IMG/VR virus record: IMGVR_UViG_3300042302_000077
Location: 1 to 29,534 of that record
From: a virus
Strand: one strand, 5' to 3'
DNA: 29,534 bases
Shown piece after piece: positions 1 through 29,534 of this stretch (position 1 is the first letter of the stretch; each line of letters opens with the position of its first letter). The position numbers and the translations under genes are program-made. The notes under the pieces are model-generated. The model searched no databases. It was not told where the DNA came from and saw only the letters and a list, made by a program, of their open reading frames with translations.

Positions 1-262
1 TGTTGTTTCGCCTGTTGAATGCGCTTGTAGTCTTTCTTGTGCCTCCTGCTCCCTTTACGCCTTGATCTTGGAACTGACCATAATCCTCCATAAAGAAACT
101 CATTGAGAACTTATCATTTGAGTAGTACACGCTATACCGAAGTGAATTGTAAAGGGTCTTGTTGAAGTTGTGCTTGCCTTTGGTGAGATTACTCCTCGCC
201 TGTTGAATGACATATTTGCCAAACTTAATAAGTACCGCAGCAATCAAGTCCTCCCGTGCCAT
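1..262 (-). CDS. Tail completion-type protein, N-terminal part (split by window ends)
   Basis: This is the first half of a gene that runs off base 1 and continues at the other end of the window (29135-29534). Translation starts at ATG 262, one base after the TAA of the preceding gene, and begins MAREDLIAAVLIKFGKYV. Joined through the 126-bp terminal overlap, the reading frame stays open and gives 172 aa. The protein is small, basic and rich in aromatic residues. It sits between a small head/tail gene and the baseplate genes, which fits a minor tail or head-tail completion protein of the HK97-gp10 kind, but I recognise no decisive motif. The last codons of this copy read F-N-R-R-N-N, whereas the copy at the other end reads F-K-R-T-N-N (see findings). 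Confidence 0.75.
   Translation of the reverse strand, partial: MAREDLIAAVLIKFGKYVIQQARSNLTKGKHNFNKTLYNSLRYSVYYSNDKFSMSFFMEDYGQFQDQGVKGAGGTRKTTSAFNRRNN
18..143. repeat. Terminal direct repeat, left copy (circular closure)
   Basis: These 126 bases are identical to 29409-29534. The outermost bases 1-8 also match their counterparts, but 9-17 differ at five positions. An exact overlap of this size at contig ends is what assemblers leave on circular or circularly permuted molecules, and it reconnects a broken gene in frame. Confidence 0.9.
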
Positions 263-263
263 T

Positions 264-731
264 TTAGCAGATGCTTATCTCGGTGTTTGCAAGCAGCACG
301 TCAAAGGTTGCAGTCCACCCTGCAAGCAGGTTCTCAAACCGCTCGCTAAAGGGAACGCAAGAAGCAGTACCATCCAACTGGTAAAGGTCGGTGTACAGAG
401 TACCCCTGCGCAATTCTGTGATGACATCGTTGATTACTGCTAGTTGGGTGTTCAGTATGTTTTGCTCGTTGCTGATGCCGTAGAACGGCTCTGCCTGCAA
501 GCGTGGATTCTCTTTGGTCTCATCTACCAAGTCCATACAAACAATGCTCACGTTCATGCGAACTATCTGTCCCTCGAATGTTGCTTGGTTGATGATAATA
601 TGCGACAAGGGGAAGATGGTCTGCTTGTTTAGGTCTATGTCAAAAATATCCCCTGTGGTTACCACGTTGACTTGGCTATTGGCTTCAAGCGTATCTTTTA
701 GTTTGGTGGTGATGTCGTAGAACTGTCTCAT
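264..731 (-). CDS. Hypothetical phage protein, 155 aa, head-tail region
   Basis: The product is a 155-aa protein starting MRQFYDITTKLKDTL. The start ATG overlaps the TGA that ends the -1 frame of the upstream chaperone gene as ATGA, so its translation is probably coupled to the frameshifted product. It contains no signal peptide, membrane segment or catalytic motif that I can see; predicted character is mixed alpha/beta with an acidic centre. Its place after terL and the tail assembly chaperone and before a gp10-like protein suggests a tail terminator or head-tail joining role by position only. I do not recognise the family. Confidence 0.75.
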   Translation of the reverse strand: MRQFYDITTKLKDTLEANSQVNVVTTGDIFDIDLNKQTIFPLSHIIINQATFEGQIVRMNVSIVCMDLVDETKENPRLQAEPFYGISNEQNILNTQLAVINDVITELRRGTLYTDLYQLDGTASCVPFSERFENLLAGWTATFDVLLANTEISIC

Positions 732-982
732 TTTATTGACTTTTTTATTAGGTCGTTTTCAACCTCTTGCTTTTGCTTTTCGAAGGTGAGGAAGTGTAGG
801 CACTCGTGGAGTTGTAGTTGTGTAATTTCTGCAAACTGCCTAATGTCTCCTTTAGCAAGTTGATAGATTGTTGCATACCATCCCCATTGCTTGGCGAATT
901 GTCCTTGCTTGGAGTATTCGTTTGATTCTTCGCCTCCAAAGAGGTCAGCATAGCTTGCAGTAACTCGTTCCCTAAATGCCAA
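728..982 (-). CDS. -1 frame extension of tail assembly chaperone (frameshift product 728..1461)
   Basis: This is an 84-codon reading frame in the -1 frame relative to the upstream gene. It has no ATG or GTG; it opens inside the nine-T run at 981-989, where a -1 slip from the 0 frame would enter it as TTG GCA TTT AGG. The fused product would be 160 + 84 = 244 aa. The frame reads like a real protein (GWYATIYQLAKGD, LHECLHFLTFEKQKQE), a pattern I recall from Bacteroidota phage proteins near terminase. Its TGA overlaps the next ATG as ATGA. This matches the gpG/gpG-T tail assembly chaperone arrangement, where the longer product recruits tube subunits to the tape measure. A weak TTG start inside the T run is an alternative to frameshifting. 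Confidence 0.65.
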   Translation of the reverse strand: MAFRERVTASYADLFGGEESNEYSKQGQFAKQWGWYATIYQLAKGDIRQFAEITQLQLHECLHFLTFEKQKQEVENDLIKKSIK

Positions 983-1461
983 AAAAAAAGCGTTGCGCCC
1001 ATAGCAACACTCATCGGGGCTTGCTTCATCTGCTCCGAGTACTTGCCTGCTCCCTCGTATGGCTCTATGAGATACCGATGCTTGACCTCGCTTGTGATAG
1101 GGCGATACAATACCGCCATCGCTTTGTGCAGGTCTTGCACGTCTTGTAGGTAGCCGTCAAGGTCAACGAACTCACCATAGGTGATATTGTCTAGTTCTGG
1201 GATGAACCCGTACTTGGTGTCCCCCATCGTGAAGGTTGGCGTGAGGCTTGGCTTCTCGTTTATCATGGCACTAATGTGCTTGCTGATATGGCTCACGTCT
1301 TTGATGCGCACATTCGGAAGATTAGCCAGAGGCACTCCGCAGAATATCTCAAGCATCTTGTGGGTCAAGAACTCCTCATCGCCCTCTAACCTCGCAAAGC
1401 GTTGGTATTGGTCAAGCGTGATCTCTGATAGGGCGGTGGGTACAATTACCTTTAGTTCCAT
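748..1461 (-). CDS. Probable tail assembly chaperone, 0-frame product, 237 aa
   Basis: The 237-aa protein starts MELKVIVPTALSEITL at an ATG preceded by a leader AAAAGGTTATTT. Residues 1-160 lie before the slippery run. From there the 0 frame goes on for 77 codons (WHLGNELLQAM, then a Ser/Thr/Lys-rich tail ending KSKRLKTT), overlapping the -1 frame over about 235 bases. Both extensions look protein-like, so the segment 748-980 may be dual coding. The call as chaperone rests on the frameshift layout and on the tail-gene context rather than on sequence homology I can verify. Distance to the tape measure is large, since four tail genes and a small ORF lie between, which is unusual for this family. 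Confidence 0.7.
   Translation of the reverse strand: MELKVIVPTALSEITLDQYQRFARLEGDEEFLTHKMLEIFCGVPLANLPNVRIKDVSHISKHISAMINEKPSLTPTFTMGDTKYGFIPELDNITYGEFVDLDGYLQDVQDLHKAMAVLYRPITSEVKHRYLIEPYEGAGKYSEQMKQAPMSVAMGATLFFWHLGNELLQAMLTSLEAKNQTNTPSKDNSPSNGDGMQQSINLLKETLGSLQKLHNYNSTSAYTSSPSKSKSKRLKTT
981..989 (-). promoter_or_regulatory. Nine-T slippery run (programmed -1 frameshift candidate)
   Basis: On the coding strand the sequence is CGC followed by nine T and GGC. In the 0 frame it is read CTT TTT TTT TGG, so a T-TTT-TTT heptamer is available for a -1 slip. The same run could also cause transcriptional slippage. A miscalled homopolymer length is possible and would alter the interpretation. Confidence 0.65.
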
Positions 1462-1484: not shown

Positions 1485-2645
1485 TTAGCGTATGGCATAC
1501 CTGCCAAAGTTAGGTCTGCTCAACTTGTTGTAGGTCGCATAGCGCAGCGCATCTATGGCGTGGTTGAATGCATCTATCGGTTTGTTCAAGAGGTTGCCGT
1601 TCTTATCCTCTACCCATTTGTAGTTCTGAAGTTCCTTGATTAGATTGCTGCTTCGTGGGGTTACAAATAGCTTGTGCCGCTTCAGCACGTCAATACCCAC
1701 TATGACGCTATCTGCGCCCTTCTGCGTGGGTTTCACGTTCCATCCCATACGATGCAGCTCCTCAATAGATTTAGGCTCCGCAGAGTCAGCATATATCTCT
1801 GCCCTTCGGTCAAGGCCAAGTGAGGCAAGTACGTTGCTGATGTCGGGGTTGGTCATCCCTGTGCGGTAGATAAGTTCATCCACATAAAGATTGTCTCCCG
1901 ACTTGTAAACCGCCACAAGTGCGGTAGGGTCGTTGGTGTAACCAAAGTCCATCCCGTGACATAGGAGCGTGGCATCCGTTGGTATCTCTGCCTGCCCGTA
2001 TTGGAAGATGGTGGCTCTGCTCATACCACGTTCTCCTAATCCATAGATTCTCCAATAGTCATTGTCCGTATGTTGCAGCCTTTCTATCTCCTCAACAATA
2101 GAGGCATCCAAGAACGGGTTATCAAGGTAGGTGGATTGGATGTAGGTGACATCATCACGAGTCAGCAGCTTATCGTAAATCCAATGGAACGCATCAGAGG
2201 GGTTGTAGTCAACCCATATCTTGCCTGTGGTACGAATCAAGAGCTGAAAGAAATCCTCCCAAGTGAGTTCGTTTGCCTCATTGCAGAATAGGTAATCACG
2301 TCTTGCTCCCCGTTTCTTCTGCGGTTGGTCAAGGCTGATAAACTCAAAGAGGTTCCCGTTTAGCTCGTAGGTGTAGTCGCTCTTGTTATGCCGTGCCTCA
2401 TCGTAGAGACTATTGGCATTTAGGATTTCAAAGAAGTCACGATAGGCCGTCATCTTGAGAGACGGCAGAGACTTGCGGACAATGGAATACACCTTACCCC
2501 TGTCCTCCATCGCCATCACGATGAGCATCTGCAAAAGCGAGTAGGTCTTACCAGAACGACTGCCGCCTTGATTGACTACTATCCGAGTTGGGGCGGTGTA
2601 GTTCTTCTCAAAGAGTTCGCTACTCTTGATGTTTAGCTCGGACAA
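1485..2645 (-). CDS. terL: Terminase large subunit
   Basis: This is the ATPase-nuclease motor that packages DNA through the portal. The protein has 386 aa, usual for the PBSX/XtmB-like group. Visible motifs are Walker A GGSRSGKT at about 27-34, a Walker B-like YLFCNEANE at about 118-126, and C-terminal RNase H-like nuclease acidic residues in GMDFGYTNDP (D233), ADSAE (D287) and NHAIDALRYA (D365). The start is a TTG that overlaps terS by 26 bases; no better ATG lies ahead of the ATPase motif. The next gene downstream is the tail assembly chaperone rather than portal. Confidence 0.95.
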   Translation of the reverse strand: MSELNIKSSELFEKNYTAPTRIVVNQGGSRSGKTYSLLQMLIVMAMEDRGKVYSIVRKSLPSLKMTAYRDFFEILNANSLYDEARHNKSDYTYELNGNLFEFISLDQPQKKRGARRDYLFCNEANELTWEDFFQLLIRTTGKIWVDYNPSDAFHWIYDKLLTRDDVTYIQSTYLDNPFLDASIVEEIERLQHTDNDYWRIYGLGERGMSRATIFQYGQAEIPTDATLLCHGMDFGYTNDPTALVAVYKSGDNLYVDELIYRTGMTNPDISNVLASLGLDRRAEIYADSAEPKSIEELHRMGWNVKPTQKGADSVIVGIDVLKRHKLFVTPRSSNLIKELQNYKWVEDKNGNLLNKPIDAFNHAIDALRYATYNKLSRPNFGRYAIR

Positions 2646-2950: not shown

Positions 2951-3211
2951 CTAAATAACCCTTTTTGATAGGTGGTGATTGTGTGTTGCTTGAAGTCGCT
3001 CCTTCCATTCTTTAATATCACCATATGCAACATGGCAATTACGGCATAGAGCCATCAGGTTTTCTATCGTATCAGCAATTTTGCTTCCACCCATCCCTCT
3101 TGACTCGATGTGGTGAATGTCTTGCGCTTGGGCTTGACATACCTCGCAAGGGATGAAGTCAGTTGTGGAGTAGCCCATCTCTTTGAGATAGACCTTCGTG
3201 TGGTTCTTCAC
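2951..3211 (-). CDS. HNH endonuclease-like protein upstream of terminase
   Basis: The 86-aa protein carries a compact HNH zinc motif: C22-x2-C25, then HH at 33-34, N51, C56-x2-C59-H60. I chose GTG 3211 because it forms a GTGA overlap with the stop of the methyltransferase gene; a TTG 15 bases further up is possible. Small HNH proteins encoded next to terminase are known to be needed for DNA packaging cleavage in several phages such as HK97, so this position suggests a packaging role rather than a mobile homing function. The leader-like AAAAAGGGTTATTT overlaps its 3' end. Confidence 0.85.
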   Translation of the reverse strand: MKNHTKVYLKEMGYSTTDFIPCEVCQAQAQDIHHIESRGMGGSKIADTIENLMALCRNCHVAYGDIKEWKERLQATHNHHLSKRVI

Positions 3212-3735
3212 CTTTGGTAAATCCAACAGTCATCAATGAACCAAGCACGGGGGAGTAGTTCATCTACCGCTTGGATTACTCCCTTCCAATTCTCGTGGTA
3301 GTCATCTCCTGCGATAAAGCCTCCCTTCTTTACTTTAGGTAGCCATAGCTTGATATCCTCCTTTACGGCCTCATAGGTATGGGTTAGGTCTATGAATACT
3401 ACGTCTAACGATTCGTTGGCAAACTTCTTTGATGCTGCTTTGGATGTTGCTTTGATTGCCTTGTACTTGCGGTCTCCCATATTCTCCACAAAGAGATTGT
3501 AGATGTTCTGTTCCGTTGCAAGTTTATGTGTGGTCGTGAGTTCGTTTGGCGAACCCTTCCAAGTGTCAACGATTGTGATTTCTTGGTATGTTGCGGTGTC
3601 GCATAGGTAGGCTGATGACTTACCGAGCCACGCCCCCAACTCTACGAACGTGCCGTCTGCGGGCATATTGGCAAGGAGGTAGTCGTATGCTGCTTGGTGG
3701 TTGAACCACCCGTCTATTTGTTTGCTCGTTTTCAT
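3208..3735 (-). CDS. Class I SAM-dependent methyltransferase (Methyltransf_24-like)
   Basis: The 175-aa protein shows the SAM-binding glycine motif FVELGAWLGKSS (about 30-41), the acidic end of strand 2 (TIVDTWKG, about 54-61), a motif IV-like DVVFIDLTHTYEAV (111-124) and GGFIAGDDYH (138-147). This fold group often methylates sugars or small molecules; there is no DNA-methylase PP[YW] or PCQ motif. ATG 3735 overlaps the stop of the glycosyltransferase gene as ATGA, so the two are translationally coupled. With two glycosyltransferases upstream, O-methylation of a transferred sugar is the likeliest job. The substrate is unknown. Confidence 0.8.
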   Translation of the reverse strand: MKTSKQIDGWFNHQAAYDYLLANMPADGTFVELGAWLGKSSAYLCDTATYQEITIVDTWKGSPNELTTTHKLATEQNIYNLFVENMGDRKYKAIKATSKAASKKFANESLDVVFIDLTHTYEAVKEDIKLWLPKVKKGGFIAGDDYHENWKGVIQAVDELLPRAWFIDDCWIYQR

Positions 3736-4259
3736 TTTAGGGCGTTGTAATAACAAAGGTACTGCTCTACGCATATAAGTGTGCCGAGCCTTGCGGCTTC
3801 ACTAGCAAAGATGCCATCGGCCTCATAGGACATTTCAAAGCGTAGGTTGGGCAGGTCGTATGGCTTGAACATATAACATGCGGTGTCTATGTTGCCGACT
3901 TGTGGTTGGTCGGTAGGGCGTAGCCTACCTATTTGCCCCCACGTTACGATTGAGCAGTCAAGGCCGTTTAGGTTGTTCCACTCCTCTATGAATTTTGGGT
4001 GCAGGATGTTGTCATCATCCAGATAGTACACCCAATCTTCTTTGGTAAAGGAATCAGCATACAAGTCAAGGAACTCATTGCGTAGGGGGTTGCCCATATC
4101 CCCCGTGCGTGTGGAGTAGTGTGTGACTGATGCGCCTGTTGCTTCCTTGTAATTGGTGGATGAATCCATCATTACAACCCAAGTTGCATAGGCAGGGATG
4201 TTTCTTCTCACCCTTACGAGGTTATGAGGGCGTGAGCAGGGAGTGACTATGTAAAGCAT
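3732..4259 (-). CDS. GT-A fold glycosyltransferase
   Basis: The 175-aa protein begins MLYIVTPCSRPHNLVRV, a nucleotide-sugar binding start seen in small GT-A enzymes, and carries a DXD-type metal motif in YYLDDDNILHP (DDDN at 81-84). The compact length and lack of membrane segments suggest a soluble enzyme. It overlaps the upstream glycosyltransferase by 13 bases and the downstream methyltransferase by 4. It would transfer a sugar from a nucleotide donor to an unknown acceptor such as a virion protein, modified phage DNA or host surface glycan. No base-hydroxymethylating enzyme was found, so a DNA acceptor is less favoured. Confidence 0.8.
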   Translation of the reverse strand: MLYIVTPCSRPHNLVRVRRNIPAYATWVVMMDSSTNYKEATGASVTHYSTRTGDMGNPLRNEFLDLYADSFTKEDWVYYLDDDNILHPKFIEEWNNLNGLDCSIVTWGQIGRLRPTDQPQVGNIDTACYMFKPYDLPNLRFEMSYEADGIFASEAARLGTLICVEQYLCYYNALK

Positions 4260-5185
4260 CGTAGTTCGTTTATCTTATCCATTGTGAAGTCCTGCACATA
4301 CTCGTATAACGATTCCGTTAGGTCAGCAACTTGGTTAGGGTTTTCTTTTAGCCTCTTGATTGCTCCTGCCCATTCGCTTGGGTGCTTGATAGCAATGCAG
4401 TTCTCTTTGGTGATATAGGGTGAATAAGGTTGCGTGTTGCTCACTATCAATGCGCACTTGCTAAACCCTGCCTCAAGCATCTTTAGGTGCGACTTGCACT
4501 TGGCAAACTCGGAAGTGCTTAACGGCACAAGGCTCACATCAAAGAACTCGTAAAGTTTATGGTAGTGTGTTGGTGGCATCGTAGGCAGCCTATGGCTTGC
4601 CTTCATAATGTCTGGGTATCCATCCACCTCCGCGACATACCCTTGATAACCTTCAAGGTTGATTGTAGATTCCCTTACGTCTAGTGCGTGGTGGTTGCCA
4701 CCAATATACCCGAAGCGCACTTCTTCGCTTGGCTCTCGCTCTACCTGCCACGTTGGTACGCTGATGGCATTGGGGATGATTCGGATGTTGGTATTATACT
4801 TCTTGACCTTTGAGGCAAGGTGCTTGTTTGTCACCCATACCTCATCTGCTGCTTTCATAGAGCGCACGATGCGCTCCCTCATCTGCTCCGAGTAAATCCC
4901 AAGCAAGGGATGCGTAGGAGGCAGCACCCACCAGTCATCATTGTCAACGATTAGCTTGATTCCCTCTTTGCGGCATAGTTTCAAGAAGTCATCAAACGGC
5001 TCTACTGGGAACACCCTTGAGGTAAAGATATGAGTAACCTTCGGCCATATTTCGGGGTCAATGTCCGTTATCTTCTCAATGAAAAAGACATCTACATCCT
5101 TGTGGCATATCAAGGGTGCAAATGTCCTGTGGTGTGATACACCCGAATTCTGTTTGTGGAACGCAAGAACGAATGGTCTAATCAT
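4247..5185 (-). CDS. GT-B fold glycosyltransferase (GT4-like)
   Basis: The 312-aa protein contains features of GT4-type enzymes: NDDWWVLPP near 82-90, RIIPNAISVP (135-144), RFGYIGGNHH (157-166) and a C-terminal acceptor/donor motif KMLEAGFSKCALIVSN (235-250). No signal peptide or membrane helix is visible. I chose ATG 5185, which overlaps the stop of the preceding basic gene by 8 bases; ATG 5209 would add eight residues. It heads a coupled three-gene cassette with a GT-A enzyme and a methyltransferase, placed between the last early genes and terminase. Confidence 0.8.
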   Translation of the reverse strand: MIRPFVLAFHKQNSGVSHHRTFAPLICHKDVDVFFIEKITDIDPEIWPKVTHIFTSRVFPVEPFDDFLKLCRKEGIKLIVDNDDWWVLPPTHPLLGIYSEQMRERIVRSMKAADEVWVTNKHLASKVKKYNTNIRIIPNAISVPTWQVEREPSEEVRFGYIGGNHHALDVRESTINLEGYQGYVAEVDGYPDIMKASHRLPTMPPTHYHKLYEFFDVSLVPLSTSEFAKCKSHLKMLEAGFSKCALIVSNTQPYSPYITKENCIAIKHPSEWAGAIKRLKENPNQVADLTESLYEYVQDFTMDKINELRCFT

Positions 5186-5351
5186 ATTGTTCTGTGTCGT
5201 TGTGTTCATCTTTAGGTCTGCGCTTCATAATTGGTGGTCTATCCTTTTCTCTTTGTTCAGCAAGACACTTCGCAGCGTAGCCTTTAGGCATTCCTTTGGT
5301 TTTACGCCTGTTGGCTTTATACCTAATTGTTGATGCCTTGCCTTTTCTCAT
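5178..5351 (-). CDS. Small basic hypothetical protein, 57 aa
   Basis: The 57-aa protein starts MRKGKASTIRYKANRRKTKG and is strongly basic in its first half and charged throughout. It overlaps the upstream gene by 29 bases and the downstream glycosyltransferase by 8, so it belongs to one polycistron. Such short Lys/Arg-rich proteins usually bind nucleic acid, but no fold is recognisable. The gene is below common length cut-offs. Support comes from the tight packing and absence of any other frame in the interval. Confidence 0.6.
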   Translation of the reverse strand: MRKGKASTIRYKANRRKTKGMPKGYAAKCLAEQREKDRPPIMKRRPKDEHNDTEQYD

Positions 5352-6777: not shown

Positions 6778-7593
6778 TTAATTAATTAAAGGTATGCATT
6801 TTTTAGCGAGTGCTGCTACGACATCCACAGTTACTGCGTTGCCTAAAGTTTCATATCTATGAGGCTTGCTAATACAAGATGTCCAATTATCGGGGAATCC
6901 TTGAAGCCTCTCGCATTCTATCTCGGTCATTATACGAATTTGGTTACTTGAACCAATGTAAGTCCCTTGACTTTTTGCTCCGTAGTATCGCTTGGTGATG
7001 GTAAGAGAGGTGTCACTTTCGCTTCTTGCTTTGTGATTATTCGCTCGACAGCGAGGGCTGATAGGGAATACCCCTCCCCAATCTGCTCCTGTGGTTGTAG
7101 AATATCCGACAAGGTATATCCGCTCTCTATTTTGGGGTAGAAACCAACTTGTATTAAGCAGTTGCCATTCAAGTCTATAACCCCCAATGTCGGTAAAGGC
7201 TTGGATAATCGCCCAAAAGTCTGCGCCATCATTTGAGGAGAATGTCCCTTTAACATTTTCCCACACAAATACACTTGGTCGGCATTCGCTAATAAGACGG
7301 ATTGCTTCGAGGACAAGAGAACTTCTTTGTCCTTCCATCCCCTTTCGGTTTCCTGCCAATGAGAAATCTTGGCAAGGACTTCCAAAAGTGATGAGGTTGA
7401 TTCTTGGAAGGTCTGCTCCTCGAACATTGGTAACTGAACCGACATAGGTTGAGGTTGGGAATTGATGTTTGTAAACTGCGATTGCGTGTTTGTCTATCTC
7501 CGAGAAGTAAGATGTTATTTCATATCCTGCTCTCTCAAAGCCTAAATGGAATCCACCTATCCCACTAAACAAATCAAGGTGGTTAATCTTCAT
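6778..7593 (-). CDS. DNA (cytosine-5) methyltransferase
   Basis: The 271-aa enzyme has the ordered C5-methyltransferase motifs: I DLFSGIGGF (7-15), IV GSPCQDFS with catalytic Cys74, VI WENVKG (111-116), VIII QNRERIYLVG (154-163), IX IECERLQGFP (225-233), X ETLGNAV (248-254). ATG 7593 overlaps the previous stop as ATGA; an in-frame start 24 bases upstream would add eight unsupported residues. No cognate restriction enzyme gene is adjacent, so it is a solitary methyltransferase, probably protecting phage DNA from host restriction. The target recognition region between motifs VIII and IX is short (about 60 aa). Confidence 0.93.
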   Translation of the reverse strand: MKINHLDLFSGIGGFHLGFERAGYEITSYFSEIDKHAIAVYKHQFPTSTYVGSVTNVRGADLPRINLITFGSPCQDFSLAGNRKGMEGQRSSLVLEAIRLISECRPSVFVWENVKGTFSSNDGADFWAIIQAFTDIGGYRLEWQLLNTSWFLPQNRERIYLVGYSTTTGADWGGVFPISPRCRANNHKARSESDTSLTITKRYYGAKSQGTYIGSSNQIRIMTEIECERLQGFPDNWTSCISKPHRYETLGNAVTVDVVAALAKKCIPLIN

Positions 7594-7763
7594 TTTTGGA
7601 ATGTTGCTTCGTACCATTCTTCAAAAGGCACACGAAGCAGGGCATCGTGGTAGGCTATACGCAGGGTAATCTTCTCAATGGTTTCTATGTCTTTGAGGAT
7701 TGATTCAGATATGTCTGCCGACTTCAACTCTCGGAGCAGTTGGGATATAGTTTGGTATTTCAT
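7590..7763 (-). CDS. Hypothetical protein, 57 aa, coupled to DNA methyltransferase
   Basis: A 57-aa protein starting MKYQTISQLLRELKSADISE, helical and charged, ending at a TGA that overlaps the methyltransferase ATG. It is preceded 3 bases upstream by the AAAACCAATC leader, which argues for real translation. No family recognised. Confidence 0.7.
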   Translation of the reverse strand: MKYQTISQLLRELKSADISESILKDIETIEKITLRIAYHDALLRVPFEEWYEATFQK

Positions 7764-8530: not shown

Positions 8531-8554
8531 AAAAAAGAGGACTACTTGCCCTCT
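8531..8554 (-). terminator. Intrinsic terminator
   Basis: On the minus strand a short stem AGAGG / CCTCT (8550-8554 with 8536-8540) with a 9-base loop is followed by a run of T. The stem is only 5 bp, but the T-rich tract continues for about 20 bases. It overlaps the stop codon of the 45-aa gene and precedes the promoter block. Confidence 0.55.
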
Positions 8555-10011: not shown

Positions 10012-10148
10012 GTGATTTCTACAATTACAACAAACAGAGCAAATTGAACGGTGTGCATCACAATATCCTCCTCAAGGTAATCGGTCTTTGACCAATTTGC
10101 CCCAACTACAAGCCCATAGATTGGGTAAAGCCCTACGTTAAAATTCAT
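9990..10148 (-). CDS. Small hypothetical protein, 52 aa, hydrophobic C-terminus
   Basis: The 52-aa protein starts MNFNVGLYPIYGLVVGANWS and has a hydrophobic stretch HTVQFALFVVIVEITW near its end. ATG 10148 overlaps the stop of the DnaA-like gene by 11 bases, and its own stop lies 22 bases inside the sigma-like gene. Small Bacteroidota phage proteins with a glycine/aromatic start and a VQFALF-type strand look similar; function is unknown. It fills an otherwise empty 126-base gap. Confidence 0.65.
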   Translation of the reverse strand: MNFNVGLYPIYGLVVGANWSKTDYLEEDIVMHTVQFALFVVIVEITWDSSQY

Positions 10149-10557
10149 TGAATGTCCGTTTTAGAGTTAAGTATAGTTCTTTATACTTAGATAACTCCGC
10201 TACCACCTCATTGAGTTTATTTAGTTCCTGCTCCATCGCTTCAAAGTCGGGCTTGTCAATCGTTGCCATAGGGTTTTCTTCAAGAACGCAGCAGGCTACC
10301 TTGTAGTAGTGCTGATAGTCCCCGTAGATAAGGCGGTCTTTGTGCATCCTTACGGCATAGGCTACCGAGCTATGGTCTTTGTCTATGGCCTCACCTAGTT
10401 CGTGGAGCGTGGCGTGGTTGCGGAATGCTGATACGAATGCTGCTCTCGCGGTGGATTCTTTGTGCGCTCGGCTGCCATTGTCTTGAAACCCAAGACGGGC
10501 GAAGTATTGCTCTTTAGATACTTTTAATTGGCGTAGTTCGAATGGTCTCATTAGCAT
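10138..10557 (-). CDS. DnaA domain IV-like DNA-binding protein
   Basis: The 139-aa protein carries a helix-turn-helix like the C-terminal DNA-binding domain of DnaA: TARAAFVSAFRNHATLHELG (36-55) followed by KDHSSVAYAVRMHKD (60-74), the equivalent of the DnaA RDHTTV-x-HA signature. The C-terminal 35 residues (EAMEQELNKLNEVVAELSKY) look like a coiled coil. It lacks the AAA+ ATPase part of DnaA. It may mark the phage origin and recruit the helicase encoded three genes upstream. The start could also be the ATG 6 bases downstream. Confidence 0.75.
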   Translation of the reverse strand: MLMRPFELRQLKVSKEQYFARLGFQDNGSRAHKESTARAAFVSAFRNHATLHELGEAIDKDHSSVAYAVRMHKDRLIYGDYQHYYKVACCVLEENPMATIDKPDFEAMEQELNKLNEVVAELSKYKELYLTLKRTFNEF

Positions 10558-10778
10558 TTGCAGCGTTTCGCTCTGCCCTCGTTGTAATTGGTTATTATTT
10601 TGGTTATCGGCATAGTGAAGTGCTTGTGATCTTTTAGTCTTTTGAACTTCATCTCACTCGCCCATTCCACTAAATTGTCATCTTTGTCTTGTACGATAGT
10701 GTAGTCAACCACTAGGTAGTCCACCCCATCTACTGCAAAGCATTCGTACTTCTGAAAGGGTGAGAGGATTTGCTTCAT
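10551..10778 (-). CDS. Hypothetical protein, 75 aa
   Basis: The 75-aa protein begins MKQILSPFQKYECFAVDGVD and ends GRAKRCKC. The ATG overlaps the previous stop as ATGA and its own stop overlaps the DnaA-like start. It looks like a small beta protein with a basic tail. No family recognised. Confidence 0.7.
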   Translation of the reverse strand: MKQILSPFQKYECFAVDGVDYLVVDYTIVQDKDDNLVEWASEMKFKRLKDHKHFTMPITKIITNYNEGRAKRCKC

Positions 10779-11086
10779 AGCGAGTCCTCAATAATCCCTT
10801 GCAGACGTTGTATCTCGTAAATCATTTGTTCGCTATCAACTCGCAGCTTTGAGTTAGCCAAGTACATCTCATTCATTTTGCCCTCTGTGAACTGGCGGTA
10901 GTCAATAAACTGCTGCAAGAGTAGGTCTGCGTAATGGCAAGACATAACGTGGTGCAGGATGTCATCTTGTACCTCTCTGCCTTTTGCTTTGTCTGCTGCT
11001 TGCTGCGCCAACCACATCGCAGTACCTGCAAGCATCAACTGCTTCTCCCTTATGTAAAGGTCGTGTGAGTCATCAGAAGGGTACAT
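10775..11086 (-). CDS. Hypothetical helical protein, 103 aa
   Basis: The protein starts MYPSDDSHDLYIREKQLM at ATG 11086, 14 bases before the helicase stop; ATG 11104 would overlap by 32. It is almost entirely helical (AMWLAQQAADKAKGREV; SEQMIYEIQRLQGIIEDSL). Directly downstream of the helicase gene, a helicase partner or loader is conceivable by position only. Confidence 0.7.
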   Translation of the reverse strand: MYPSDDSHDLYIREKQLMLAGTAMWLAQQAADKAKGREVQDDILHHVMSCHYADLLLQQFIDYRQFTEGKMNEMYLANSKLRVDSEQMIYEIQRLQGIIEDSL

Positions 11087-17924: not shown

Positions 17925-19943
17925 TTAATTTTTATATCCTCTTGTTGGTGTTTCAATAGGGGCGATAGCAACGAGGGGGTCATTCTGCATAGGTCGGAAG
18001 CCCATACGAATGGCTTGGTTCACGTTGATAATATCCGTGCCGTTCAAAGAGCCTCCTCCGTAGATGTTGCCCTCTTTAGTTAGCTTCTTTCGGTAGATTC
18101 TACGCTCCCAACGATGATGACAATTTGCACCGCCTTTGAAAAGCCATACGCTATACGGCTCACCTTGTGCCTCTGCTCCTCCTTTTGAACTTAATGCTTC
18201 CACATCCTCCATCCGATAAACTCTTTTAGCAGAAAGTAAGGTGCGGCATAGCAAACGGCTTTCGCCCTCTGGGTCTTTTTTAGTTCCTACCGCATAGAAG
18301 TATCGCACCTTGTAACGCTCCGTATCTTGCTCACTTGCCTGCTGCGCTGCAAGGTCGGTGCGTGAATTGAGGTATGCCTCTACATCGTATTCTGCTCCCT
18401 CATCTTCAACAAGCTCTGCCGTGATTAGGTCAAAGTCCTGCATCAGCTCCTCCTCGCTTTCGCCAAGACTCTCAATGTTCAGTAGCAACTCTGCCGCAAG
18501 CTCATCACGCAAGAATGGGCGGTCATCTTTCTTTGCGAGTTTGACCTTCTTTTGCGCCTTCATCTGTGAGATGATATTTGCAGCATTGCCAGAAAATAAT
18601 CCCTTTGCCACATCGGGGTCGAACTGAAGCATCTGTACCAAGAACGTGATGGCTTGGTCAATCGTTAGAACGCCATCCTTTACGCTCTGCATAATCTGCA
18701 AAGAGCTTGCAATCTGCGCTCCGTTGTACGATGCATCCTTCTTGATTAAGTCCTCGTTGGCTTCACTCACTTGCACGGTTTCAATGTCTTCTGTTTTAAC
18801 GCCTGTTGCTTCTTCTACAACCTCTGCATCTTGTACCTCCGTTTCGGTGAACTCTAAAGGCTGAAGGGTCTTGAAGTACAAGTTGAGGCTGATGTCATTG
18901 TATGACAAGATTTGGTCTATGCCGTCAATGATAATCTGTTGCTTGGGTCTGATAACTATATTGTCAAGCAGCACCGATGCGGTCATCAGTTCATCAGCGT
19001 TATTGCCGAATCCTGTATTGTCCTTGATGCCTAAAAGCAAAGGGCTTACAATACGATGCGACACTAATATCTTCTGCGTTGATTCAGCACTCAAGAACTG
19101 ATACTGCTCGGCAGCATCCGACAACTGCACGGGGTCAACCGTAGCAGCAAGGTCTTTGTTGTCGTTGAACGCAAGAATAAACTTACCAGAGTTTGAACTA
19201 CCGCTAAACTTCGTAGCAATCTGCTGCTCTATGCTCCTGCGCTCCTCCTCACTTGGGACTCCGTTGTTGAAGTTAATCAACATGGAAGGCGCAAGGCCGT
19301 TCTGAATGTTGTTGATGTGGTAGTTGGCAATCTCCTCCTCTAGTTCTGCATAGGGTAAGCCACCTTGATAGTCAACGGGGGAGTAGTAGTAGAATCCTGC
19401 TCGGTATGGCTTGATGTAAAGTATCTCCAAACCCTCACGGCTCTTGCCAAATGCAGGGATGCGCACGGGAGTCTCTTTTCTGCTGCTCACCGCAAGCCAA
19501 TCCTTTGCGTAGTAGTAAGCCTCAATCTCGCCATCTTCGTTTGCTCTGGCTGCCCTCAACGTCTCTACTGGGATGTGCTGCACCTCTACGATGGTGTTGT
19601 GATCTTGGGAGTACACGACCTGCAAAGAGCATTGCCCCATCATGACGTAGTCAGCAACAACCTTCTGCAAGCAAGACTTGGTGAACAAGCCACGCATCGC
19701 TGCGTACTCGCTCGGCTTCTTGGCAGAGTCTGTTGCATCTAGTCCCTTACCAAAGGTCAAATCCATCAACGAGTTGAGGATAGCGTTGTTGGTGGGTGAT
19801 CCGTTGTACCTGTCAATCAGATACCCGAAATAGTCGTTGTTGTCTCCGTATTCTACGAAGTCCTTACCCTGCACCTCTTTAACAACAGGTGTGGTGTATG
19901 AACTGAAGTTCACAACGTGGACTTTAGATGATGATGTACTCAT
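17925..19943 (-). CDS. Portal protein with C-terminal Cys/His extension
   Basis: The 672-aa protein has a portal body over about residues 1-400 (for example RIVSPLLLGIKDNTGFGNNADEL and the stem/wing-like EEEIANYHINNIQNG), then a low-complexity acidic linker and a C-terminal domain with SRLLCRTLLSAKRVYRMEDV and GGANCHHRWERR (CHHRWER at 608-614). The latter resembles a segment of minor head/capsid-associated proteins in Bacteroidota phages, so the gene looks like a fusion of portal with a head-completion module. ATG 19943 overlaps the upstream gene by 20 bases; ATG 19973 is possible. It lies downstream of the capsid gene, reversing the usual order. Confidence 0.8.
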   Translation of the reverse strand: MSTSSSKVHVVNFSSYTTPVVKEVQGKDFVEYGDNNDYFGYLIDRYNGSPTNNAILNSLMDLTFGKGLDATDSAKKPSEYAAMRGLFTKSCLQKVVADYVMMGQCSLQVVYSQDHNTIVEVQHIPVETLRAARANEDGEIEAYYYAKDWLAVSSRKETPVRIPAFGKSREGLEILYIKPYRAGFYYYSPVDYQGGLPYAELEEEIANYHINNIQNGLAPSMLINFNNGVPSEEERRSIEQQIATKFSGSSNSGKFILAFNDNKDLAATVDPVQLSDAAEQYQFLSAESTQKILVSHRIVSPLLLGIKDNTGFGNNADELMTASVLLDNIVIRPKQQIIIDGIDQILSYNDISLNLYFKTLQPLEFTETEVQDAEVVEEATGVKTEDIETVQVSEANEDLIKKDASYNGAQIASSLQIMQSVKDGVLTIDQAITFLVQMLQFDPDVAKGLFSGNAANIISQMKAQKKVKLAKKDDRPFLRDELAAELLLNIESLGESEEELMQDFDLITAELVEDEGAEYDVEAYLNSRTDLAAQQASEQDTERYKVRYFYAVGTKKDPEGESRLLCRTLLSAKRVYRMEDVEALSSKGGAEAQGEPYSVWLFKGGANCHHRWERRIYRKKLTKEGNIYGGGSLNGTDIINVNQAIRMGFRPMQNDPLVAIAPIETPTRGYKN

Positions 19944-20259
19944 TGTTGTAGCTTGTTTCTTCGGTGTAAACATTTTGGTTCACCGTAAATTTGTCGAAAT
20001 CAGTTTGTGAAGTTACAAAGACTCGGTCTCTGTATATTAGATTTCCCGATGCAAATACCTTCAAGCCATAGAATCTATTGTTGACAAGGCTAAACGTGCC
20101 TGTAAGGGTCATAAAACCATTAGCAGATACTGCCGTGACCGCAGGTGTTGCGGTGGTGTTTGTTGATTCATCAATCAGCGCAATCGTAACGCTCGCAGGG
20201 AACGTGCGTGGAATGATTACTATTGCTTGTGGCGAGGCTGATACTTGAAGGATATGCAT
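19924..20259 (-). CDS. Small structural protein, 111 aa
   Basis: The 111-aa protein starts MHILQVSASPQAIVIIPRTF and is predicted all-beta (Ig-like: TVTLTGTFSLVNNRFYGLKVFASG-type strands). It begins a unit after the terminator at 20303-20322 and has the leader AAAAGGTTATTT. By position between tail tube and portal it may be a neck, decoration or minor tail protein. Family not recognised. Confidence 0.7.
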   Translation of the reverse strand: MHILQVSASPQAIVIIPRTFPASVTIALIDESTNTTATPAVTAVSANGFMTLTGTFSLVNNRFYGLKVFASGNLIYRDRVFVTSQTDFDKFTVNQNVYTEETSYNNEYIII

Positions 20260-20266
20260 CTTAAAT

Positions 20267-20278
20267 AAATAACCTTTT
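20267..20278 (-). promoter_or_regulatory. Late-type leader AAAAGGTTATTT
   Basis: It lies 7 bases before ATG 20259, the same spacing as the identical motif before ATG 1461. Confidence 0.5.
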
Positions 20279-20302
20279 ACTTTGGATTTGTTTGAAAATA
20301 GA

Positions 20303-20322
20303 AAAGGGGCTTGCGCCCCTTT
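20303..20322 (-). terminator. Intrinsic terminator after tail tube gene
   Basis: An 8-bp stem AAAGGGGC / GCCCCTTT with a 4-base loop, followed on the minus strand by TTTTC and more T-rich sequence. It separates the tube gene from the portal unit. Confidence 0.75.
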
Positions 20323-20344
20323 AACTATTCTGCCTTGCGGTAGG

Positions 20345-20893
20345 TTACGAGTTAGAACCCACTACAATCGTTTCAACTGCACCTGCAAGTCCTGCGAATG
20401 GATTGGCAACGGTAGCACCTGCGATGAAGTTAGCAGGAAGTTGCTCCTGTCCCTCCATTGTCAAGGTATAGCCCGATAGGTCACCCATAGCAGCACCAGT
20501 TACAATCGTTCCACCTGTTACTTCGGCTCCGTAGTTCAGACCCATCATAAAGGCGTTGCCGTTGTAGTCTTGAACGACCACATAAGGCCGACCATAGGCA
20601 AGCAACTTCAATTCTTTGTTGTCCTCCTTTGTCAGTTTGGTCAACGTCAAATTCAAAGTCTGCGTGAAGAAGGTTGTGCCATTCTCACGGCTTGAGTTAA
20701 AGGTTTGCTCAAAAGAGCTATTGCCTTTTACCAAGTATTGGTAAGCAGAGAAAGTACCACTAATGTTGGTAATCTCATCGTTGGTGAGGGTTACCGTACC
20801 CAAGTCACCGAAATCTACAAAGTACACGGCATAAATGCCACCTACTACGTCTTTACAGGGTACTGCCCTGCCTTTTGTTAAATCACAAGCCAT
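20345..20893 (-). CDS. Probable major tail tube protein
   Basis: The 182-aa protein (MACDLTKGRAVPCKDVVGGI...) is beta-rich with repeated Thr strands (TVTLTNDEITNISGTFSAYQYL, TTFFTQTLNLTLTKLT) and a DLSGYTLTMEGQEQLPANF segment near its end. I recall similar proteins downstream of Bacteroidota phage capsid genes. Flanking terminators on both sides suggest an independent, highly expressed gene, as expected for a tube subunit. A second capsid or decoration protein is the alternative. Confidence 0.7.
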   Translation of the reverse strand: MACDLTKGRAVPCKDVVGGIYAVYFVDFGDLGTVTLTNDEITNISGTFSAYQYLVKGNSSFEQTFNSSRENGTTFFTQTLNLTLTKLTKEDNKELKLLAYGRPYVVVQDYNGNAFMMGLNYGAEVTGGTIVTGAAMGDLSGYTLTMEGQEQLPANFIAGATVANPFAGLAGAVETIVVGSNS

Positions 20894-20916
20894 TGTTTCT
20901 TTGTTTTATTAGAATT

Positions 20917-20953
20917 AAAAAAGAGGGCGAGGACATAGCCCAAGCCCCCTCTT
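20917..20953 (-). terminator. Intrinsic terminator after capsid gene
   Basis: On the minus strand AAGAGGG (20947-20953) pairs with CCCTCTT (20921-20927) around a G/C-rich loop of 19 bases that can pair further, and is followed by T-rich sequence. It lies 19 bases behind the capsid stop codon. Confidence 0.7.
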
Positions 20954-20971
20954 GATTTACATTAACTCGGA

Positions 20972-21898
20972 TTAAGAGTAAAGGACTACGTCAGAACCGA
21001 TTCCGTACTGAACTCCTGCGAAGAAGCGAAGGATTACGCGGACATTTAAGCTTCCGTCAAGGTCGGACATGTCAAGGACACGCACTTCGTTTCTTTCATC
21101 AGCCAAACCGCAGCCGAAGAATAGGTTTGAAGATTCAGCAGCAACCATCTTGTTTGAAGGAAGACCATTTGCCATAGCAACGCGGATGCCATCAAAGAAC
21201 AAGTCTCCGTTGCCGTACCACATTGTGCCTTTGTTGTCAACACCATTTGCTCCAAGACCAGAAGTTCCGAATCCACCTAGCGCACGGACATAAGCCTTTG
21301 CGACATTCTGTGGAACGTAGATGGTCAAGTCCTCCTTGCCGTAAAGGGCAGAAGGGATTGCATCAGCAACTTTACCAAGCTCTGTGATTACGTTAGCAGC
21401 AGTCACGGTTGTAGCAGTTACGTCAATAACGTCAGAGTCAGCAGTCATCAAAGAAAGGAATCCAGAGAACTCACCTGCACTTGCAGCGTTTCCGTTCCAA
21501 ATGTTCTGCTCAATCTTCTGTGCAGTCTTTGAAGCAACGTGTGCAATCAAGAAGTCAGCAAAAGAAGCGGGGATGCTATCGTAAGCAGAGAAGCCCATCT
21601 GACCACCAATCCAAGAATCGTAGTAGTCTTTCTTGCAAAGCTGCAAGTTCACTTGGAATGCCTCAACCTCAAGAATGCGGTCGGTCAAAGTCAAGGTAGA
21701 AGTTGCATCAAAATCACAAGTGCCATCTTTTACGATGTCATTGGTGTTCACCTTCTGAAGGGTGGTGCGGTAGTTTACGTTTGGAAGAATCTCAATGAGT
21801 CCTTTGTCAAGCGTGTTAGCAGAAAGAAGTGCAGCAGAGATATACTTCTGCGCAAAAATGCCTGCATAGTTTGTGGTGATTGAAGTGGTCGTAGCCAT
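20972..21898 (-). CDS. Major capsid protein
   Basis: The 308-aa protein starts MATTTSITTNYAGIFAQKYI and has the size and pattern of HK97-fold capsid proteins of Bacteroidota phages: an N-terminal helix, IEILPNVNYRTTLQKVN, EVEAFQVNLQLCKKDYYDSWIG, a central domain with LTIYVPQNVAKAYVRALG and a C-terminal VRVILRFFAGVQYGIGSDVVLY. It is preceded by a scaffold-like gene and an A-rich leader without Shine-Dalgarno sequence, and followed by a terminator. Confidence 0.85.
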   Translation of the reverse strand: MATTTSITTNYAGIFAQKYISAALLSANTLDKGLIEILPNVNYRTTLQKVNTNDIVKDGTCDFDATSTLTLTDRILEVEAFQVNLQLCKKDYYDSWIGGQMGFSAYDSIPASFADFLIAHVASKTAQKIEQNIWNGNAASAGEFSGFLSLMTADSDVIDVTATTVTAANVITELGKVADAIPSALYGKEDLTIYVPQNVAKAYVRALGGFGTSGLGANGVDNKGTMWYGNGDLFFDGIRVAMANGLPSNKMVAAESSNLFFGCGLADERNEVRVLDMSDLDGSLNVRVILRFFAGVQYGIGSDVVLYS

Positions 21899-21910
21899 TT
21901 TTTATATTTA

Positions 21911-22489
21911 TTATTTGTTGATTCGTGCAAGGACTCGGTCAATCGTCTTTTGGGGGCGGTTTGAACTCATCTTTTGGACTTGCTTTGTTTCGGGGTTGTG
22001 CTTGATGGCTTTCGCAGCAGGTGCGGCAGATAGTTCTGCTTTAACCGCAGCCATCTCCTCCTTCTTGGCGTAACCGCCCATCTCCTCACGCATTCCTTTC
22101 ATCTCCTCACGCATCATTGCAATCTCCTCAAGAACTCTCTCAATGATTGCAACAACCGCAGGGGCTTCTTCTGCCATTGGCATATCAGCAAGTTCGGTAG
22201 CTGCTTCGGCCTCAACCTCAACTTCTACCTCCGCTTCAGCGGTGGCTTCTTTAATTTCAGCGATTACGCCTTCTTCGGTGATGACCAAAATACGGTTATC
22301 AGCAAGTAGGTGTTCGCCAATAGGAGCAGCAACTCGGTCTTCGCCACTAATGACAAACACTTCGTTACCTGCTTCAAATGATTCTGCCTCAAGAACGGCT
22401 CCGTTCTCAAGTGTCATTTGCTCGAACTTAACCTCGCGGATGGAGGACAGTTCAGCAAGGATGCGGTTAAGTATATTATTCGCTTTCAT
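21911..22489 (-). CDS. Scaffold-like capsid assembly protein
   Basis: The 192-aa protein has an N-terminal conserved part (VKFEQMTLENGAVLEAESFEAGNEVFV...RILVITEEGVIAEI), then an acidic repeat tract (AEAEVEVEVEAEA), a long coiled coil (VVAIIERVLEEIAMMREEMKGM..EEMGG) and a basic C-terminus (NRPQKTIDRVLARINK). Disordered acidic tract plus coiled coil plus basic capsid-binding tail is the layout of phage scaffolding proteins. It lies between the protease and capsid genes. Confidence 0.8.
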   Translation of the reverse strand: MKANNILNRILAELSSIREVKFEQMTLENGAVLEAESFEAGNEVFVISGEDRVAAPIGEHLLADNRILVITEEGVIAEIKEATAEAEVEVEVEAEAATELADMPMAEEAPAVVAIIERVLEEIAMMREEMKGMREEMGGYAKKEEMAAVKAELSAAPAAKAIKHNPETKQVQKMSSNRPQKTIDRVLARINK

Positions 22490-22529
22490 ATCTAACTAAT
22501 TAAAGGGGTTTTGATTATTTGTAACATTT

Positions 22530-22754
22530 TTAGAGGTCTTGCCATAGAGTATTTGTGGACTCCCATAGCGTGTTGATGGTCTGCCACTCCTCGCCTCTTA
22601 TCCTAACGCTTATGCCTTGACCTACTAACGAGCCTATCCCTTGCGCTTGCAATGAGCCATCGCAGCAGGTGGACTTGTAGGTGTTGTCTTTGCATAAGCA
22701 TCCACGATTGCCACCTCTCGGTGATGCAACGGGAAGTTTCATTGGTCTATACAT
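22530..22754 (-). CDS. Small Cys-rich phage protein, 74 aa
   Basis: The 74-aa protein contains GCLCKDNTYKSTCCDGSLQAQGIG (residues 18-41), a C-x-C-x8-CC motif I recall in small proteins beside Bacteroidota phage capsid genes, and a Trp-rich end (EEWQTINTLWESTNTLWQDL). Four cysteines could bind zinc. ATG 22754 overlaps the protease stop by 8 bases; an ATG four codons later is possible. Function unknown. Confidence 0.75.
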   Translation of the reverse strand: MYRPMKLPVASPRGGNRGCLCKDNTYKSTCCDGSLQAQGIGSLVGQGISVRIRGEEWQTINTLWESTNTLWQDL

Positions 22755-23829
22755 TCTTTAGGTCTTCTTTATGGTATAGGTATTCGCTATCTTCTGTATG
22801 CTCTGCGCCTGTCATCAGCCTGCCGTCAGCATCTTTATGGGTGAGACCTGTGTAGAGTTTGCCGTCTGCGGTGTAATGGGGTACGCCTGCCGCAAGATCA
22901 ATCTTGCCGAGTTCCTTGAGTTTGGATTCTGCCCAACGCTTACCTGCAAGACCTCCCCATAGTAGGAATGATATTGTGCCGCAGGCTTGCGTGTCATTCT
23001 CATCGTAGTATTCTTCGGCTCTTGAAAGGTAAGAGTACATCCGTGTGATGGTCTCTACGCTTACAGGCTTGCCCTGTGCTAACTGCTGCGCTCTTACTTT
23101 ACCGACAGGCGTTGCACACTTATTGCCGTTCTTCTCATTTAGTTCAATACCACGCTTGGCGTTGTTCTTCACCGCATCGGGGTAGTCAGAATACGAAGCC
23201 ATCTCGGTGCGTGTTCCCGACTTCTTACGACCATCCCTTTTTATTATAGCAACAATCTGTGCAAGCATCAACGCTGCTTCCTGCTCCTCTATCTGTGCCA
23301 TCTCTTGCTTGGCAAGGTTTAGCTTGTCCACGAAGTACCCCTCAATAGAGAAGCCTTTGACCTTTCCTGTCTTGACAAAGTTTGTCCAAATTTCGGGGTT
23401 GTTAACTTTCATAGATACCATCCAAGTGCCTACGGGTAAATCAAAGCCGTACTTCTTGCTCTTGTCATGTACGTCATCTTCTATTATCCAAGACTCTACA
23501 ACCGTGAGGCCGTTGATGCCCACCTCGTGTTCAAGCGTAGCGTTGTTCTGTTTGGACTTCTGAAAGAACATCTCGCTTGCTTTGCGGATGGTGGCTTCGC
23601 TGAAGTACACATAGAACTCCTCTTGGCCTTCGGCTCGGTAGATGGGCTTGTTGGGTACGAGTGCTGCTCCCATAAGGATGCGCTTCTCATCGCTCTGCGT
23701 AGCGAACTCCACCCTTTGTGAGTTGAGGGCTATGAAGTCCTCCTCAATAGCAGGATATTCTACAAGGGAGATGGCATCAATGCCCGTGAGCAGCATTGAT
23801 TCATCAAGTATTAGTTCAATTAGTTTCAT
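22747..23829 (-). CDS. Prohead protease, XkdF-like, with C-terminal extensions
   Basis: The 360-aa protein starts MKLIELILDESMLLTGIDAI. Residues 1-170 match XkdF-like serine proteases: catalytic candidates H101 in TLEHEVG and S161 in VKGFSIEGYF, with WIIEDDVHDKSKKYGFD between. Residues about 215-300 form a second domain (YPDAVKNNAKRGIELNEKNG...GTISFLLWGGLAGKRWAESK) often fused to phage prohead proteases. The end holds two related 13-residue units (ADGKLYTGLTHKD, ADGRLMTGAEHTED). It would cut scaffold and capsid N-termini during maturation. The ATG overlaps the tape measure stop as TAATG. Confidence 0.85.
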   Translation of the reverse strand: MKLIELILDESMLLTGIDAISLVEYPAIEEDFIALNSQRVEFATQSDEKRILMGAALVPNKPIYRAEGQEEFYVYFSEATIRKASEMFFQKSKQNNATLEHEVGINGLTVVESWIIEDDVHDKSKKYGFDLPVGTWMVSMKVNNPEIWTNFVKTGKVKGFSIEGYFVDKLNLAKQEMAQIEEQEAALMLAQIVAIIKRDGRKKSGTRTEMASYSDYPDAVKNNAKRGIELNEKNGNKCATPVGKVRAQQLAQGKPVSVETITRMYSYLSRAEEYYDENDTQACGTISFLLWGGLAGKRWAESKLKELGKIDLAAGVPHYTADGKLYTGLTHKDADGRLMTGAEHTEDSEYLYHKEDLKNV

Positions 23830-29138: not shown

Positions 29139-29534
29139 TTGGTGGTTCTAAAGTCTTCTTCTGTTAGTTTGAATGCCTCTACTAATTCGGGCGGTAGTTT
29201 GGCAAAGCCGAGTTTGAATGGTGTGGTAAAGAAATTAGTGGGTCTAATACCCTGCCGATATACCGACTCACGCACCGCATAAGGATTTAGTCCTTTGCTC
29301 TCTGCCCAAGCCTTGAATGCAGATACTGGAGGCTTCTTGTCCTTGTAGGCAAATGGACTATTCGGTGCTTTCTGCCTCCATATCTTGCCCTTGTTGTTTG
29401 TTCTCTTAAATGCGCTTGTAGTCTTTCTTGTGCCTCCTGCTCCCTTTACGCCTTGATCTTGGAACTGACCATAATCCTCCATAAAGAAACTCATTGAGAA
29501 CTTATCATTTGAGTAGTACACGCTATACCGAAGT
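29135..29534 (-). CDS. Tail completion-type protein, C-terminal part (split by window ends)
   Basis: This is the second half of the gene starting at 262 and cut by base 1. The frame is open to the window edge, so a start at GTG 29521 would be an artefact of the cut. The C-terminal part is basic, with KGKIWRQKAPNSPFAYKDKK and LNPYAVRESVYRQGIRPTNFF, the latter resembling the end of HK97-gp10-like proteins (G-x2-PT-x-F). The whole protein is 172 aa and its stop overlaps the next ATG (ATGA). Confidence 0.8.
   Translation of the reverse strand, partial: LRYSVYYSNDKFSMSFFMEDYGQFQDQGVKGAGGTRKTTSAFKRTNNKGKIWRQKAPNSPFAYKDKKPPVSAFKAWAESKGLNPYAVRESVYRQGIRPTNFFTTPFKLGFAKLPPELVEAFKLTEEDFRTTK
29409..29534. 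repeat. Terminal direct repeat, right copy (circular closure)
   Basis: Exact copy of 18-143. Removing one copy leaves a 29,391-bp circle on which all genes form a continuous same-strand series. Confidence 0.9.

Follow-up and report, generated by a model that had tools for sequence, protein, structure and literature searches.

The window analysed here, the whole of a 29,534-bp viral record from IMG/VR (IMGVR_UViG_3300042302_000077), carries on its minus strand a gene in which two long reading frames overlap behind a run of nine thymines (T9), and we propose that a -1 frameshift at this run gives the gene two protein products. The 0-frame gene (748..1461, defined by an open reading frame (ORF) call, a PHROG match and a structure model) starts with an ATG at 1461 and encodes 237 amino acids (aa); its stop is a TAA at 750-748, directly followed by a second TAA. 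The T9 run lies at 981..989. In the 0 frame the region reads CTT TTT TTT TGG, and the slippery heptamer T TTT TTT (988-982) has the correct phase for a -1 shift. In the -1 frame TTT TTT is followed by TTG GCA TTT AGG and so on up to a TGA at 730-728. This -1-frame ORF (728..982) stays open for 84 codons after the slip and encodes a helical C-terminal domain, conserved as protein, with the motif QFAKQWGWY...LAKGD...CLxxLTFEKQK; the fusion product has 244 aa. The -1 ORF contains neither ATG nor GTG, its sole start-like codon being a TTG that spans the end of the run. Its stop overlaps the start of the next gene (ATG at 731-729) in the sequence ATGA (728..731), and the 0-frame stop lies 16 nucleotides (nt) upstream of that same start. 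A sequence-only reading of this DNA had described the nine-T run, the two long overlapping frames with their products of 237 and 244 aa, the missing start codons and the ATGA overlap, all of which we could confirm. On the coding strand of the window, T9 is the sole A/T run of at least nine. The next longest is a T8 at 8536, also on the minus strand, which is the only other long T run.

Relatives of the gene were collected by searching IMG/VR with each frame as a protein, which gave 162 and 157 tblastn-confirmed relatives, of which the best 80 were kept for each frame; a profile search with the -1 domain gave 583 relatives. The site statistics given below cover 129 distinct homologous sequences, found by protein similarity and not selected for the run. 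Exactly T9, in the same phase, was present in 129 of 129, and the run was never 7, 8 or 10 long. The run is kept down to 37% protein identity among contigs, and the cultured Nonlabens phages P12024L and P12024S still have it at ∼30%. At the run both Phe residues are encoded by TTT without exception, while only 59% of the Phe codons further upstream in these genes are TTT, so that the invariance of T9 is a constraint at the nucleotide level. Chance, or a homopolymer or assembly error, was ruled out as the origin of the run because T9 is exact in all 129 sequences, the two cultured phage genomes included.

The -1 frame is conserved as a protein in all relatives, and this conservation starts at the run. 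A -1-frame stop codon lies 2-8 nt upstream of T9 in 8 of the 129 sequences, no ATG or GTG occurs anywhere in the -1 ORF in 83, and in every case the +1 frame stays open for two codons only. With stops just upstream, start codons missing and the +1 frame closed, the run is the only credible entry into the conserved -1 frame. It could be argued that the locus consists of two independently initiated genes, as the annotators of the Nonlabens phages assumed when they called genes 40 and 41 separately, or that the homopolymer contains a sequencing error. Neither is at all likely, given an exact T9 in so many distinct sequences from contigs and cultured phages alike, the large share of -1 ORFs without a conventional start, and -1 conservation that begins at the run itself. 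On these comparisons we put the occurrence of a -1 slip at T9 at well above nine in ten. Translation of the -1 frame, as the sequence-only reading had suggested, is thereby supported both by the conserved in-phase slip site and by the conservation of the -1 protein.

The 0 frame also remains open after the run, for 54-89 codons in all metagenomic relatives and for 24 in the Nonlabens phages. We assessed this openness by holding the -1 protein fixed and redrawing its codons from neighbouring genes, and also by codon permutation. The probability of an open 0 frame by chance was 0.0002-0.034 in 12 divergent lineages and 0.29 in Nonlabens with its short overlap. Multiplied over the 13 lineages, the probabilities came to ∼1e-35 for codon resampling and 1e-18 for permutation, and beyond codon 24 still to 1e-26 and 1e-12, respectively; the lineages, which share less than 65% identity and were treated as independent, are divergent rather than strictly independent, and these products are only a guide. 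A second test, the cleaner of the two because it includes controls, counted stops: beyond codon 18, no 0-frame stop was observed against 46.5 expected from codon usage. The corresponding observed and expected counts matched in three control regions, namely the upstream single-coded part of the gene (216/226), the next gene (212/218) and the upstream large ORF (453/442). Over the same codons the 0-frame hydropathy was -0.81 against -0.38 expected (z -6.3; controls 1.4, 0.0 and -2.0). This means that synonymous choice is biased towards hydrophilic 0-frame residues, and the long 0-frame tail is rich in S, L, K, N, Q and T.

Substitution rates divide the overlap into two parts. Over codons 0-15 after the run, the synonymous rate of the -1 frame was 0.10-0.13 of that expected among close relatives and 0.21-0.30 among distant ones, and the substitution rates in these first 16 codons were flat across the three codon positions. 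Further on, the synonymous ratio climbs to ∼0.45 and then to ∼0.5-1.1, with a dip in the last codons before the next gene. Substitutions were counted on the tree by parsimony, and the precision of these ratios is limited by that method and by shared ancestry. Both frames are therefore under selection, but strong amino-acid constraint on both is limited to the first 16-18 codons after the run. In the window the strongly dual-coded segment, taken from the synonymous ratio and the flat codon-position rates as the first 18 codons, corresponds to 929..982, where the 0 frame encodes a helix (LGNELLQA..) and the -1 frame LAFRERV..YADLFG. The weakly dual-coded segment (751..928), delimited by the stop and hydropathy test, follows; beyond codon 18 the -1 frame carries the conserved domain, and the 0 frame is kept open and hydrophilic with a drifting sequence. 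The dual-coded overlap of the sequence-only reading is thus upheld in part: both frames are selected, strongly so over the first 16-18 codons, but the overlap is not uniform. The depression of synonymous rates, which had been named as a check on it, holds at 0.10-0.30 over the first 16 codons and weakens further on as the rate rises to ∼0.5-1.1.

A simpler view of the weakly dual-coded segment would be that only the -1 frame matters past the first 20 codons and that the openness of the long 0 frame simply follows from the -1 codons. The return of the -1 synonymous rate towards normal past codon 32 (0.5-1.1) would fit, as would the fact that most 0-frame residue conservation past codon 32 mirrors the -1 frame. 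A by-product should nevertheless contain stops at the expected frequency, as the three control regions do, and should show no hydrophilic bias in its synonymous choice. We consider this view improbable, and hold it moderately probable that a lineage-wide overprinted tail of 54-89 codons is selected for its translation, either as a functional hydrophilic C-terminus or for coupling to the next gene, and that the gene yields two products of nearly equal size with alternative C-termini.

Structure predictions, in which the 0-frame product and the -1 domain were folded as separate models, are in line with this division. The AlphaFold2 model of the 0-frame family has a predicted local distance difference test score (pLDDT) of 76, with residues 182-192 and 214-237 below 50; it comprises a folded N-terminal domain of about residues 1-181, followed by a largely disordered hydrophilic tail. 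In the model the slip site, at residue 160, falls within the last long helix of the N-domain (residues 150-181), and the 16-20 constrained codons encode the end of this helix. The -1 domain was modelled as a few helices with modest confidence. In a fold search against solved structures the 237-aa model matched nothing at E <0.001. Its fold matches were many unnamed phage proteins, a protein of Nonlabens phage P12024S (7.5e-15) and, weakly, one of Flavobacterium phage 6H. The -1 domain alone gave a single unnamed match at 6e-4, to be read with the modest confidence of the model.

These data suggest the following working model. From one start codon, ribosomes would make the 237-aa 0-frame product and, in a fraction of events, the 244-aa shifted product, in which the conserved helical domain takes the place of the unshifted tail. 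The 0-frame extension has two parts, as the synonymous rates and the stop and hydropathy test indicate: ∼16-20 strongly selected codons that finish the N-domain helix, and a further 36-70 overprinted, hydrophilic codons for which selection chiefly preserves openness and solubility. Ribosomes that do not shift, which would presumably be most of them, would translate up to the next start and so keep the downstream tail gene coupled, and the hydrophilic bias would render the extra tail harmless. We infer this coupling because, in every case of a next start abutting or overlapping the -1 stop, only 4-82 nt separate the 0-frame stop from that downstream start; in Nonlabens, the exception, the next gene is detached, lying 130 nt past the -1 stop, and the 0 frame closes 297 nt ahead of it. 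The alternative to coupling is that the 0-frame tail has a direct function.

The arrangement resembles the G/GT genes of phage lambda, which share the -1 shift, a common N-terminus, an alternative C-domain and a place in the tail operon (PMC5009743). In lambda, loading of the tape measure protein and recruitment of tube subunits are the joint task of the 0-frame product and the minor -1 fusion (PMC5009743). By analogy, the N-terminal domain here would be common to both forms and the shifted domain would be present in the minor form. Two features of G/GT systems are found in the relatives: an in-phase slippery site that joins two overlapping ORFs by a -1 shift, conserved in 129 of 129, and a second ORF that lacks its own start and begins at the slip site. 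A third, typical but not defining, is a 0 frame that ends a few codons past the slip, and here the systems differ. The annotated G and T frames of lambda overlap by ∼6 codons, compared with the 54-89-codon extension in the metagenomic relatives. Phage P2, whose E/E+E' genes likewise have a -1 shift with an annotated site and a shared N-terminus, ends its 0 frame ∼6-7 codons past the site (19685 to 19705), compared with 76 codons in the window. The unusual length of the 0-frame extension relative to known G/GT systems, to which the sequence-only reading had drawn attention, is thus borne out.

The neighbourhood places the gene among tail genes. It lies directly downstream of the gene for the terminase large subunit (TerL; 1485..2645, minus strand; Terminase_3 1.6e-25, PHROG 2), and is followed by the next gene (264..731, minus strand; 155 aa, PHROG 30964 of unknown function), which belongs to the same tail-gene string. 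The gene order is TerL, the frameshift gene, ORFs of 155, 172, 411 and 711-719 aa, a very short ORF and a tape-measure-like protein (PHROG 20660, 5e-10), after which come protease and capsid-like genes and, further on, a portal gene. The frameshift gene belongs to this tail string. All members match PHROG 32199 (unknown function; 1e-21 for the 0-frame gene), and 5 of 22 match PHROG 166, a 'tail protein' family, weakly (E 0.002-0.04). Pfam, NCBIfam and PDB gave no match for the frameshift gene.

Taken together, we assign a probability of about 0.72 to the reading that a -1 frameshift yields two forms of a lambda G/GT-like tail assembly factor whose unshifted form ends in an overprinted 0-frame tail. 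By analogy, the chances that the gene is a tail assembly chaperone are about two in three. Several points weigh against this reading. About five genes separate the frameshift gene from the tape-measure-like gene, so that it is not adjacent to it as in lambda, where G/T is flanked by the major tail and tape measure genes, a position that is usual for such genes and not strictly required; no sequence match to the lambda genes was found either. No known tail assembly chaperone family was matched, PHROG 166 being the sole functional hint. The support for the shift comes from sequence comparison, the lineages behind the openness products share ancestry, and the coupling draws on a single contrast between lineages, that of Nonlabens with all the rest. 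A location immediately downstream of TerL and some five genes ahead of the tape measure gene, together with the lack of a chaperone family, PDB or NCBIfam match, would also suit a real frameshift with another role, namely a two-form virion or connector protein. We regard this role as rather doubtful, since a -1 slip that joins a shared N-domain to an alternative helical C-domain within a tail string is the hallmark of G/GT, and since a distant homologue in Flavobacterium phage 6H likewise precedes the tape measure gene by a few genes and is followed by a separate -1 ORF. The chaperone name given in the sequence-only reading is therefore retained on analogy and on the tail string, but none of Pfam, NCBIfam, PHROG or PDB provides a match that so names the gene.

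How the slip would take place at T9 is a separate question from its occurrence. RNA polymerase might slip on the run and add a U, in which case U10 transcripts would place the -1 frame in register and the ribosome would read normally. In many bacteria, selection against transcriptional slippage appears at a run length of nine (PMC1088944), and a conserved A/T run of at least nine within coding sequence, the mark of such slippage by this threshold, is what the T9 provides. That the run was never 7, 8 or 10 in 129 sequences is in agreement with this mechanism, as is the lack of a conserved RNA structure around the site: the mean z of folding was close to zero (-0.02, -0.21) for the 50-80 nt downstream of the run and -0.45 upstream, and RNAalifold found no covarying helix around the site, so that a stimulatory RNA structure has no support. 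However, a ribosomal slip requires no more than the heptamer T TTT TTT, and the two outer Ts can be explained by the coding in both frames, codon 1 being GTT, CTT or ATT, codon 4 TGG, TAY or TGC, and the -1 codon a TTR for Leu. The missing RNA structure is not decisive between the mechanisms because phage tail-assembly shifts can do without stimulators (PMC5009743). We regard transcriptional slippage as a real possibility, but as less likely than not.

The closest cultured relatives are the Nonlabens (Persicivirga) phages P12024L and P12024S, whose genes 40-41 encode the ∼30% identical homologue directly after TerL, with the same T9 in the same phase and a -1 frame open for 80 codons. Unlike in the window, their 0 frame ends 24 codons after the run and the next gene is 130 nt away. 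Both genes are annotated as hypothetical proteins and the frameshift was not recognised; in both phages (JQ823123 23946-24640 and its equivalent in JQ823122) genes 40 and 41 are very probably one frameshifted gene, and their annotation is corrected here to that extent. A more distant relative is protein AGN89393 of Flavobacterium phage 6H (191 aa, 10352-10927; the record was identified by its 191-aa length), which shares a Foldseek match (1.4e-4) and the GEYVD...MYR motif and is similarly placed relative to the tape measure gene, although the similarity is weak (TM-score 0.31-0.35). Its 0 frame ends shortly past a T6 run and, unlike here, a -1 stop directly follows this T6, so that a slip site in 6H would have to lie elsewhere or be absent. 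The downstream -1 ORF of 6H lies at 10046-10480 on the minus strand (L204). Of the 293 aa of PHROG 25418, 6H accounts for positions 1-190 only, so that fused forms may exist elsewhere.

A tblastn search of named phages with the -1 domain gave no match. Genome contigs searched with a single protein for prophage or host relatives yielded none, and an alignment-based search of genome contigs found only two, both from a Winogradskyella metagenome-assembled genome (L201, L202), which are probably binned phage. The carrier most likely belongs to a group of Flavobacteriia-infecting phages related to Nonlabens phages P12024L/S (Inhavirus). An abundant and largely uncultured phage lineage is thereby added to those with frameshifted tail genes. 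The frameshift is an already known phage device; the unusual part is the long selected 0-frame tail, which shows that the frame read without a shift may also be long and under selection in its own right, as was not expected from lambda and P2. The system makes two questions directly testable: whether the avoidance of stops in such an overlap benefits the protein tail or the coupling to the following gene, and whether slippage on T9 in Bacteroidota phages is ribosomal or transcriptional.

The ends of the window (1-143 and 29392-29534) match at 96.5% identity over 143 bp and adjoin each other in three relatives (L024, L028, L092); the window is therefore a circularly permuted genome, nearly complete, with strain variation where the ends meet. 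Its late genes have an unusual order, with tail before head: at 17925-25646 (minus strand) the tape-measure-like gene is followed by a head protease (PHROG 34096), a PHROG 1623 virion structural protein that is likely the capsid, and the portal. Another part of the late gene string (3208-5209, minus strand), which shortly precedes an HNH gene and the terminase genes, encodes a methyltransferase (Methyltransf_24, 5e-20); its two neighbours, ORFs of 175 and 320 aa, look glycosyltransferase-like by eye and have no Pfam match. Finally, the cytosine methylase gene at 6778-7617 wholly encloses a candidate ORF of 171 aa (6930-7445, minus strand) that has the same orientation but uses a different frame.
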